Below are positions 4,063 to 5,842 of a DNA stretch of 11,239 nt, piece by piece. The stretch is taken from NCBI GenBank assembly GCA_947365485.1, contig CANAXK010000034.1:1-11239 (forward strand), given 5' to 3'. Positions within the stretch are counted from its first letter, which is position 1. Each line of letters begins with the position of its first letter. The notes beneath the pieces are model-generated. The model did not search any database. It saw only the letters and a list, made by a program, of their open reading frames with translations, and was not told the DNA's origin. The stretch is from an uncultured bacterium (GTDB taxonomy: Bacteria; Cyanobacteriota; Vampirovibrionia; Gastranaerophilales; Gastranaerophilaceae). The position numbers and the translations under genes are program-made.

Positions 4063-4752
4063 ATGGATAATAAAACTTTAATCAAACAATACGTAGGTGT
4101 TGTACAAAAAATAGCGAGAGTTGAGCATAGGCGTATACCAAACCACATGATTGAGTATGAAGAGCTGGTTAGTATAGGCATACTTGCCATACAACAATTG
4201 ATTAAGGGAAAATCCGAAGAACAGCTTGCACGTTATAATGATGCTTACGTGGGGACAGCTGTGAAATGGGCTATACGTAACGAGCTTCGACACCGCTACA
4301 AGTGGTACACAATGAAGCACAAGAAAGAAGACGGAGCTGAGGACAGCTACACAGAAGATACTGCGGCTCAGGATGGTGCTTCAGAAGATATGGGATTCAG
4401 CATTTCTCCGACAAAGGTTAGAGAAGCTGTTTACGAAACAATCCTCTCAATAGACGGGCTTGCAGCTGCTGCAACTGACAACGCTTCACCTTTTGATTTT
4501 ATAAAAGACAATTCAGCAATGCCAGATGAGCAGGCTGAAATTGTTGAGATGAGTAAACTTATTAAACAAGCTATTGCACAATTACCTCAAAAAGAACGTA
4601 CTGTTGTAGAATACAGGTTCTACAGAAACATGCAGGCAAAAGACATCGCAAACATGATAGGGCTTTCGCCATCAAGAATTACCAGAATCGTTCAGTTCTC
4701 ACTCAACCAGATTAGAGAATACCTGAAAGCCAGAGGCAGAGAAGATTACTAG
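4063..4752 (+). CDS. Sigma-70 family factor, probably FliA-type
   Basis: The 229-aa protein is a sigma-70-family initiation factor. Region 2 covers about residues 5-85: EYEELVSIGILAI (31-43) corresponds to 2.2, and YVGTAVKWAIRNELRHR (62-78) to 2.3-2.4, the part that reads the -10. Region 4 spans about 160-222, with LPQKERTVVEYRF (174-186) and a helix-turn-helix at about 190-212 (KDIANMIGLSPSRITRIVQ). Size and the pairing with flhB suggest FliA (sigma-28), which transcribes late flagellar genes such as flagellin. Against this, the usual region-3 sequence is not recognisable: an acidic linker (about 88-110) and an Ala-rich stretch stand there instead. A group 3 sigma of another role (sporulation/SigF-like or general stress) is therefore possible. 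The ribosome-binding site is weak (AAGAAAAG). Confidence 0.85.
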   Translation: MDNKTLIKQYVGVVQKIARVEHRRIPNHMIEYEELVSIGILAIQQLIKGKSEEQLARYNDAYVGTAVKWAIRNELRHRYKWYTMKHKKEDGAEDSYTEDTAAQDGASEDMGFSISPTKVREAVYETILSIDGLAAAATDNASPFDFIKDNSAMPDEQAEIVEMSKLIKQAIAQLPQKERTVVEYRFYRNMQAKDIANMIGLSPSRITRIVQFSLNQIREYLKARGREDY

Positions 4753-4864
4753 GGATTTTACCAACAAAAAGTATAAAGTTTTGTAACAATATATGCAAAA
4801 CTGCTAAAGTTTTTGAAAAAACTGCCGTTATACAAAATGTACTTAGCAATAAAATATTATTTAT

Positions 4865-4900
4865 ATCAATGTAACACAATATACATTTTGTTACATTGAT
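4865..4900 (-). repeat. Palindromic dif-like site, copy 1
   Basis: This is an imperfect palindrome: half-site TCAATGTAACACAATAT on the left, and the reverse complement of the right half differs at only 2 of 17 positions. Bases 4867-4898 are the exact reverse complement of 5035-5066. Read on the minus strand, it has an 11-bp arm, the central hexamer TGTATA (4885-4880) and a second 11-bp arm TTGTGTTACAT. That is the layout of a Xer recombination core site, and also that of a dimeric regulator operator. Confidence 0.75.
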
Positions 4901-4963
4901 TTTTGTAATACATTCATAATTGTTGTTATTAGTGCGTTTTAAGATATCGCAGCTTCCTTATTC

Positions 4964-4973
4964 AGGAGGTGAT
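4964..4973 (+). promoter_or_regulatory. Orphan strong Shine-Dalgarno (AGGAGGTGAT)
   Basis: AGGAGGTGAT is complementary to ten bases of the usual 16S rRNA 3' tail, stronger than any gene-start site in the window, yet no ATG, GTG or TTG begins a reading frame at the right distance. The only candidate is ATT at 4977, 7 bases after AGGAGG. It would open a 21-codon hydrophobic frame ending with TAA at 5040-5042, inside the left arm of the RBS hairpin. CTTCCT (4953-4958) just upstream could pair with AGGAGG. Confidence 0.35.
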
Positions 4974-5027
4974 TTTATTCTTTTTATATACATTTTATTT
5001 TTTTGTAAACCGCTATTCATGTGGGTT

Positions 5028-5073
5028 TCCTTTCCAATGTAACAAAATGTATATTGTGTTACATTGGAAAGGA
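5028..5073 (+). promoter_or_regulatory. Hairpin sequestering the RBS of the gene at 5081
   Basis: In RNA, 5028-5050 (TCCTTTCCAATGTAACA...) can pair with 5051-5073 in a stem of up to about 23 bp with two inner mismatches. The right strand includes GGAAAGGA (5066-5073), the core of the only ribosome-binding site in front of ATG 5081. When folded, the stem would hide that site, so translation should depend on something that opens it, such as a protein, temperature, or a ribosome arriving from upstream. Confidence 0.55.
5035..5066 (+). repeat. Palindromic dif-like site, copy 2 (inverted)
   Basis: This 32-bp site is identical to copy 1 in the opposite orientation; the inner edges are 136 bp apart (4899-5034). 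Its parts are left arm ATGTAACAAAA (5037-5047), centre TGTATA (5048-5053) and right arm TTGTGTTACAT (5054-5064). Compared with the E. coli dif site as I remember it, the centre is identical and the right (XerD) arm matches at 9 of 11 positions (TTATGTTAAAT), while the left arm matches poorly. Outside the 32 bp, the palindrome extends to 5028-5073 at this copy only. Confidence 0.75.
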
Positions 5074-5080
5074 GTTATCA

Positions 5081-5410
5081 ATGGACTTTGGTACAAGATT
5101 TGGCAAGAATGTAGATTATTTGGCACAACGCACGGGTTATAAAAGTATGGAGGCAAACGACAGTTTTGGAGCGTCAAAAGCATCTGGTGGTTTGGCATTA
5201 TTTTGCTTTTTAGGAGGTCTTCTCATGACTGTATTCGGGGCTAACAAATCGCCGGGGCCTCACTGTGTATCACGGAATGAGCATCAGGTACCAGTAGGCG
5301 ACGCAAAGCTTGCCAATGTTAATGAGAAGGATTGCGACGTTAGAATTGCAGAAATGAAGAATAGTATGCCTAGAACAAACCTCGGAAACTCCGGCTTCAA
5401 TCCAATGTAA
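5081..5410 (+). CDS. Hypothetical protein with one membrane helix
   Basis: I do not recognise this 109-aa protein. Residues about 1-33 are polar (MDFGTRFGKNVDYLAQRTGYKS). A hydrophobic, glycine-rich segment at about 36-53 (GGLALFCFLGGLLMTVFGA) should span a membrane, and the C-terminal half is polar with two cysteines and ends RTNLGNSGFNPM. The start at 5081 is chosen because GGAAAGGAG (5066-5074) is well placed; the longer frame from GTG 5021 would have to translate through the palindrome. An internal AGGAGG (5212-5217) lies 7 bases before an in-frame ATG at 5225, so a 61-residue C-terminal product is possible. The gene is 20 bp upstream of the next small gene, which suggests one transcript. 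Expression is probably governed by the hairpin over its ribosome-binding site. Confidence 0.7.
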   Translation: MDFGTRFGKNVDYLAQRTGYKSMEANDSFGASKASGGLALFCFLGGLLMTVFGANKSPGPHCVSRNEHQVPVGDAKLANVNEKDCDVRIAEMKNSMPRTNLGNSGFNPM

Positions 5411-5430
5411 AATTTTAAGAAAGGAAAAGT

Positions 5431-5787
5431 ATGAACATCACAAACAAAGAATTACTGGCAAAAGAATACCAGAATATCATGCAAAACTACCTCCAACCCC
5501 AGGTAGAAAATCAAACGGTGCAAGCATCTCCAACTCTGGAGGACACGCTTGAGAGTATTGCAAAACTATCCTCCTATAGAAACATGCTTTCTATTGTGGG
5601 TTCAACCAACTGCACGAAAACTATTTATCTAAATGACGGTACATCGGTAGATGTAATTACAAGAAACGGGTTTATAAACATCCATGGCGCAGCACTCAAT
5701 GGCGAGTCCTTTAACCTAACGCTTACAAACCTTGAGCCGGAAAAAGTTATGGACATAGCGCAGGACATTGCAAAAGAGCTCGGGTAA
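5431..5787 (+). CDS. Hypothetical 118-aa protein
   Basis: I do not recognise this family. The 118-aa product is soluble-looking, with no signal peptide or membrane helix. It has a helical, Gln/Asn-rich N terminus (residues 1-35), a short helix-forming stretch (about 36-56), and a strand-rich core (KTIYLNDGTSVDVITRNGFINIHG, about 63-86). It closes with a C-terminal helix EPEKVMDIAQDIAKELG (102-118). The ribosome-binding site AAAGGAAAAG directly precedes ATG 5431. It follows the membrane-helix protein by 20 bp and is closed 5 bp after its stop codon by a strong terminator, so the two genes likely form a short transcription unit behind the dif-like sites. Confidence 0.75.
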   Translation: MNITNKELLAKEYQNIMQNYLQPQVENQTVQASPTLEDTLESIAKLSSYRNMLSIVGSTNCTKTIYLNDGTSVDVITRNGFINIHGAALNGESFNLTLTNLEPEKVMDIAQDIAKELG

Positions 5788-5792
5788 AATTT

Positions 5793-5823
5793 TTCGGGGG
5801 AGATTTTAGAAATCTCCCCCGAA
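5793..5823. terminator. Strong hairpin terminator between convergent genes
   Basis: A perfect 14-bp stem (TTCGGGGGAGATTT, 5793-5806, with its complement 5810-5823) closes on a 3-base loop TAG. It sits between the plus-strand gene ending at 5787 and the minus-strand lepB ending at 5843. A short T run (AAAATTTTT, 5787-5794) precedes it, and on neither strand is there a long T tract after the stem, so it may act bidirectionally on stem strength. Confidence 0.75.
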
Positions 5824-5842
5824 TCATATAATCATAAATTTA

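Follow-up and report, generated by a model that had tools for sequence, protein, structure and literature searches.

The 200-bp stretch 4867–5066 of the window (the complete piece of DNA analysed, 11,239 nucleotides long) is best explained as an invertible regulatory switch that is flipped by a small tyrosine recombinase and serves phase variation, a reading to which we assign a probability of roughly 0.85. An inversion switch had been put forward here in the original prediction, with dif-like Xer sites at its ends. The switch itself stood, as matched centers, linked recombinases, and paralogous switches point to tyrosine-recombinase sites bounding a probably phase-variable segment; the dif/Xer part was abandoned. 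Computational comparison established a family of such sites, the rule by which they pair, and the association of one recombinase clade with them. That the segment inverts, which enzyme acts in the host, and the polarity of the switch are inferences. According to the proposed mechanism, a small tyrosine recombinase would pair the two inverted 32-bp sites through their identical centers and flip the 136 bp between them. A 180-aa protein encoded on contig C42 of the host would act in trans on the window switch and on others. The other orientation would release the Shine-Dalgarno sequence and turn a weak promoter-like sequence toward the genes starting at 5081 and 5431.

Structure of the window locus

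The window is contig C34 of the host genome (G000; 1.63 Mb in 227 contigs, 83.8% complete). The following features were delineated.

4867..4898, plus strand: left recombination site with center ATAC (repeat search and site-pattern scan)
5035..5066, minus strand: right recombination site with center GTAT, reverse-complementary to the left site at every position (repeat search and site-pattern scan)
4899..5034, no strand: inner segment of 136 bp, bounded by the matched sites and presumed to invert
4952..4980, plus strand: terminator-like hairpin (4952–4970) with a T-rich tail (one found against 0.1 expected in shuffles)
4983..5009, minus strand: weak promoter-like sequence TTTACA-15-TATAAA, noted by eye, which would face gene 5081 upon inversion
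5028..5073, plus strand: 46-nt palindrome; in the present orientation, folding predicts that its RNA hairpin pairs with the Shine-Dalgarno region of gene 5081
5081..5410, plus strand: gene 1, 109 aa, no family, putative target
5431..5787, plus strand: gene 2, 118 aa, no family over the cut-off
4753..5842, no strand: lineage-specific block with the switch and the two genes, between a sigma-factor gene and lepB (locus comparison)

The two repeats lie exactly at the predicted coordinates, are 100% complementary, and stand 136 nt apart. Each 32-bp copy is an imperfect palindrome, as had been claimed. The layout of 4867–5066, inverted repeats of 10–40 nt around a short segment, is that of an inverton. 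TGTATA, originally proposed as the center, gave way to a variable center of 4 nt when the family was compared (AAT-ATAC-ATT/AAT-GTAT-ATT); this hexamer is common in the window, with 10 matches against 5.2 expected. The right-hand palindrome is wider than the repeat, and its arms are 95% complementary.

The closest relative found was G270 (MAG MGG12104, an uncultured Candidatus Melainabacteria bacterium), the locus L241 of which is 95.2% identical to the window over 2,291 bp. The inner segment 4899–5034 has 93% identity there, in unchanged orientation. Inversion of 4867–5066 was looked for between the window and this relative and was not seen in the one ortholog (L241/L352), which has the same orientation.

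Genes 5081 and 5431 are probably OFF in the present orientation, as a plus-strand transcript would meet the terminator-like hairpin and then the hairpin masking the Shine-Dalgarno region. The supposed orphan ribosome-binding site at 4964–4973 turned out to be the 3' arm of the terminator-like hairpin. Hairpin folding over 5005–5100 gave a z value of -5.2 (-5.7 in the relative). Inverting the 200 bp in silico raised the mean probability that the Shine-Dalgarno region is unpaired from about 0.13 to 0.57–0.66, and the same calculation in the relative gave an increase from 0.08 to 0.58. The pairing extension measures 10 bp beyond the 26-nt core in the window and its ortholog; means over 67 pairs of the family are 2.2–2.5. 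Shine-Dalgarno masking as a general feature of the switches was rejected, the long extension being particular to the window locus. At the segment end bearing the promoter-like sequence, the best promoter match on the minus strand had a score of 7.5, compared with a mean of 6.4 in shuffles. No strong sigma-70 promoter facing out of the window segment was found, and a consensus promoter scan of 4740–5150 returned four sites (2.8 expected), none of them inside the inner segment.

A family search returned nothing over the cut-off for gene 1 or gene 2. By tblastn, gene 1 was detected in one of 38 genomes of the genus; it is also present in G270, and among 5.8 billion proteins it has three matches, itself included. 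G011 and G026 have the sigma-factor gene end to end with a convergent lepB, and 4753–5842 is therefore considered a lineage-specific block. This arrangement was seen in two of 30 loci, most of the others having different neighbors.

A family of sites with matched centers

The sites of the window are members of a family, AATGTAACANAAT-NNNN-ATTNTGTTACATT. Further copies in the host, which the original prediction had proposed to seek, were indeed present. The degenerate pattern TGTAACWNAATNNNNATTNWGTTACA matched 14 times and the reversed-pattern control not at all, so the window site is more than a chance match. A search of the host with the 200 bp as query yielded the complete unit a single time and the 32-bp site on several other contigs. 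Eight of the 14 sites make four pairs, and six are single on their contig, four of these being no farther than about 200 bp from its end (those on C29 and C148 are). In all, eight of the 14 are within 500 bp of a contig end, a position that fits repeats as well as mixed orientations and proves neither.

G270, with about 2.1 Mb, contains 58 exact sites and 63 at ≤2 mismatches (reversed-pattern control, 0). At the latter threshold, at least one site occurs in 26 of the 38 genus genomes and at least eight in nine of them; sites are absent from 12, and the control matched in one genome only, G014. An exact site was found in 20 of 286 genomes drawn from the order, 14 of the 20 belonging to the genus. 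Among the matches listed in a scan of named genomes, many site-bearing records are Candidatus Gastranaerophilales. A phage origin of the sites was rejected: only eight stretches of a viral collection hold the exact pattern, none of these paired.

Paired sites are mostly 130–890 bp apart; single sites are often found at contig ends. Partners share their center, and different pairs, even inside one genome, differ in it. The 4-nt centers are exactly reverse-complementary in 64 of 67 non-redundant pairs, with 25 kinds of center, whereas 2,000 shuffles of the centers gave 5.05 matched pairs on average and never more than 12. The 67 pairs come from stretches chosen for holding sites, with duplicates removed, and include a few from other phyla. 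Left out were pairs with any site at >2 mismatches and 18 loci, nearly all from Planococcaceae, which were set aside because their arms and spacing differ and their centers do not match. Two of the remaining three pairs are one base off. The third, L044:1217–1423 (GAGT/GAGT), is the sole direct-orientation pair among the 67 and could undergo deletion instead of inversion or reflect an assembly error. In 28 stretches of G270, which represent part of its site places, 26 pairs were found, all inverted with matched centers, plus three single sites. The relative's copy of the window switch carries ATGT/ACAT and the window ATAC/GTAT; as the difference affects both sites at once, the two sites have changed together. 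Matched centers are what recombination within a pair would maintain, and they are expected of sites recombined by inversion.

Planococcaceae-type arrays contain TGTAACTTAAT-NNNN-ATTAAGTTACA-like sites every 200–900 bp, with centers matching in one of 43 pairs. These loci, nearly all from Planococcaceae, include L214, L216, L218, L245, L252, L259, and L264 and resemble arrays of cassettes more than inverted switches. At L058–L060, L062, L063, L091, and L285, full sites are adjoined by tandem units, each about 113 bp long, that contain the half-sites AGCACC-ACAAT.ATGT or their reverse complement.

A small tyrosine recombinase linked to the sites

At nine loci (G033, G014, G024, G025, L281, L232, L318, Roseburia L255, and Tepidimicrobium L315), an open frame for a tyrosine recombinase of 181–196 aa lies between the paired sites. 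The proteins of G025 and L281 are nearly identical, and broken copies between sites at L071 and L130/L253 were excluded from the nine. PF00589 proteins are encoded in all 38 genus genomes. A tree was built with 40 small recombinases from 40 of 41 loci, including six added loci and five from named records; L138 and L168 represent one gene, and L161 (G023) is missing because it has no open reading frame. The site-linked Gastranaerophilales enzymes fall into clade A, which has 18 rows and a support of 90/70, short of the starred level. Apart from the ortholog group described below, 11 of 12 clade A rows have a site nearby (≤4 mismatches, within 700 bp), and seven of the 12 have one on each side. 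None of the 20 other rows of the order, clade B, in which one gene is counted twice, has sites on both sides; at L164, two 3-mismatch sites are both on one side. A search for inverted repeats around six clade B loci yielded nothing convincing. The Roseburia and Tepidimicrobium enzymes fall outside both clades.

The ortholog group (support 100/100) comprises G000:C42, G007, G011, G021, G026, G030, and G003, where a 72-aa fragment lies at the end of a contig. No site stands beside the gene in its whole members, G000:C42 included. The ortholog occurs in seven of the 38 genus genomes, all seven with at least eight sites; so many sites are found in two of the other 31 (Fisher p = 2.9e-6, a value that ignores shared ancestry). 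G012 and G025 have 12 and 10 sites, respectively, without the site-free ortholog. Because all seven genomes bearing it have at least eight sites, the ortholog is taken as a candidate trans-acting invertase, and the enzyme of the host is likely the 180-aa catalytic-domain-only protein encoded at G000:C42:2253–2792.

The residues R-K-H-R-H-Y are catalytic in tyrosine recombinases. In 10 aligned proteins, R40, K64, H128, R131, H154, and Y163 (C42 protein numbering) are invariant, and together with the PF00589 match they identify the enzymes as tyrosine recombinases. Scores against the FimB/FimE invertase models are far under the cut-offs (53.8 bits versus 222 for NF007371 and 41.9 versus 221 for NF007370). 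The best solved match is the XerC-like recombinase chain 4a8e, and the nearest solved chains are Xer-type by sequence. The recombinase tree offers hints, with modest support, of an enzyme that may once have flipped its own gene and later become a trans-acting controller of many loci.

Alternative explanations

The palindromic core of the sites is of the tyrosine-recombinase type, and many genomes of the genus encode PF00589 proteins of about 285–320 aa, the size of Xer proteins. Both points would suit a dif-like pair served by the housekeeping XerC/XerD of the host. However, the host has a separate single-copy dif-like sequence with different arms (G000:C63:972–990). The corresponding dif-like sequence, ATAATATATATTATGTAA(A/G), occurs once each in 30 of the 38 genus genomes. 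The comparison of chromosomal dif arms with those of the 32-bp site, named beforehand among the refuting outcomes, speaks against dif, and the window sites have neither dif-like arms nor the one copy per chromosome of a dif. In addition, all 38 genomes encode PF00589 proteins, yet 12 lack the sites, and the recombinases between sites are small, not Xer-sized. The Xer/dif reading of the window sites is wrong, and service of the pair by XerC/XerD is extremely improbable. Paired operators, with a dimeric regulator looping the DNA between them, are highly improbable as well. They would explain palindromic sites just upstream of genes, but with a regulator one would expect selection to keep the center conserved, whereas the centers vary between pairs and are copied between partners; the linkage of a recombinase clade to the sites also argues against them.

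It is very unlikely that the unit is a MITE or a similar mobile element ending in the 32-bp repeats, with centers matched by transposition instead of inversion. The full 200-bp unit with its terminal repeats, the copy number of which had been proposed as the test of this alternative, is single in the host (84% complete), which makes a MITE a weak explanation for the window unit. In favor of a mobile element, inner cassettes are multi-copy in other switches (a 155-bp type in G270 and a 366-bp type in G007), and the block 4753–5842 is absent from G011 and G026. Nevertheless, the center is common to partners and different between pairs even within one genome, the gene between the sites of long pairs is a recombinase at nine loci, and the segments often precede gene starts by 20–110 bp. 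It is very unlikely that the terminator and a Shine-Dalgarno-masking riboregulator are what matters here, and not inversion. Such an RNA element would account for the strong hairpin 5028–5073, kept in the relative, and for the terminator-like stem, but its long pairing extension is particular to the window locus, whereas paired sites are general. The RNA hairpin may act together with inversion. We prefer a recombinase-driven inversion switch although the one orthologous copy shares the orientation of the window, six of 14 host sites are unpaired on their contig, the centers of L044 are direct, the presumed trans enzyme has no adjacent site, and G012 and G025 are rich in sites without it.

Promoters, neighboring genes, and orientation of the switches

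In 55 segments of ≤600 bp, the extended -10 motif TGNTANWAT was found within 90 bp of a segment end 21 times facing outward and once facing inward; the motif was chosen after the segments had been viewed, and the segments include copies of a single cassette. General sigma-70 scores, unlike this motif, separated the two directions poorly in these 55 segments, which are not independent; they averaged 7.5 outward and 6.9 inward, with the outward score better in 31. In five of 29 switches tested (L338, L339, L347, L041, and L048), the right site is bordered on its outer side, toward which the inferred promoter points, by a strong intrinsic terminator, as though transcription were to be ended in the OFF direction.

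The prepilin leader PF07963 was recognized in 10 of 19 chosen site-adjacent proteins, in eight over the cut-off. In G011, at least 11 of 22 PF07963 matches, one with an internal stop, are no more than about 350 bp away from a site, as are three of 13 in G000. At L070, L093, and L058, the switch separates two divergent paralogues whose leaders are the same or similar. A good share of the switches adjoin genes for likely surface proteins. At L073:5383–7014 and L079:5434–7260, the leader is joined to YadA-head repeats and a Peptidase_S74 chaperone domain. A gene for a calpain-family cysteine protease (PF00648; L084:462–1832) adjoins a site in G021.

Homologous cassettes stand in opposite orientation beside homologous genes in L073/L079, L073/L083, and L076/L081 and, less clearly, in the cross-species comparison L070/L093. 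For the last, the left genes give the best end-to-end match (54%) and the right ones reach 37%; gene shuffling is an alternative, because the right gene of L070 matches the left one of L093 (62% over 158 aa). The orientation is the same in the other comparable loci (L044/L234, L234/L308, L079/L083, L074/L080, and L306/L314). In G270, 11 switches with alignable cassettes stand beside prepilin-type genes, and the putative promoter points away from the gene in 10 and toward it in L330; promoter polarity is a weak prediction for this cassette type, and in three of the 10 another gene is on the far side.

Possible exchange between loci

The right flanks of G000 contigs C57 and C201 are shared at 97% with L347 and L339 of G270, and the cassettes are different. 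On C29, the flank of L336 is joined to the gene of L335 through the site and cassette. In the long flank that was tested, the window, C73, C151, and C154 each correspond to a single G270 locus. The discordant loci reflect either an exchange of cassettes and flanks among loci or an error at repeats in one of the assemblies. A tentative extension, which we consider possible but rather doubtful, is a spacer-typed network in which same-center sites would recombine across loci as well as within a pair, and one small trans-acting recombinase would both flip dozens of promoter cassettes and move cassettes and flanking genes about the chromosome.

Relation to known systems and significance

The sites share the tyrosine-recombinase site layout with dif/Xer and with pdif modules. 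Unlike dif/Xer, the window family has different arms, many inverted pairs, and a small recombinase of its own. Invertases of the fimS/FimB-FimE type are catalytic-domain-only enzymes of about 200 aa. The enzyme described here is likewise catalytic-domain-only, and NCBIfam models of tyrosine-type DNA invertases match it far under their cut-offs. In contrast to FimB/FimE, it is outside the family by cut-off, its putative targets are many loci, and its gene often lies inside its own switch.

Gut-bacterial invertons are described as small segments between short inverted repeats, with a promoter inside and often near cell-surface genes, and invertases are linked to groups of invertons (PMC11892184, PMC8748976). 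The window switch resembles invertons of the PhaseFinder type in the short inverted repeats bounding a small segment; it differs in that the repeats share arms around a variable center copied between partners, with up to 63 sites per genome. Clostridioides difficile, with RecV and multi-locus switches, offers a further parallel; its strain R20291 has seven invertible sequences, including the 174-bp Cdi2 switch with imperfect 19-bp repeats (PMC9286219). Several switches per genome, short inverted repeats, and promoter inversion are common to that system and ours (PMC9286219), whereas seven invertible sequences there compare with dozens of sites here. Among the matches listed in our literature search, which covered few subscription journals, no report on invertons in Gastranaerophilales was found. 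The matches included a study on geese for Gastranaerophilales and one on flagellin diversity for Melainabacteria.

Invertons are already well known; the present case is one of up to 63 sites per genome with variable, partner-copied centers in Gastranaerophilales. The variable centers are natural labels for which sites can recombine, and partner choice by a tyrosine recombinase therefore becomes directly testable. If the preferred reading is true, an uncultured gut lineage with a small genome would possess a large repertoire of DNA inversions (63 sites in the approximately 2.1 Mb of G270), with switches often beside genes for type IV prepilin-leader proteins, some of which also have YadA-like heads. 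Should the tentative network across loci be true as well, these non-photosynthetic relatives of cyanobacteria would have a promoter shufflon that spans the genome and serves surface proteins with prepilin leaders.
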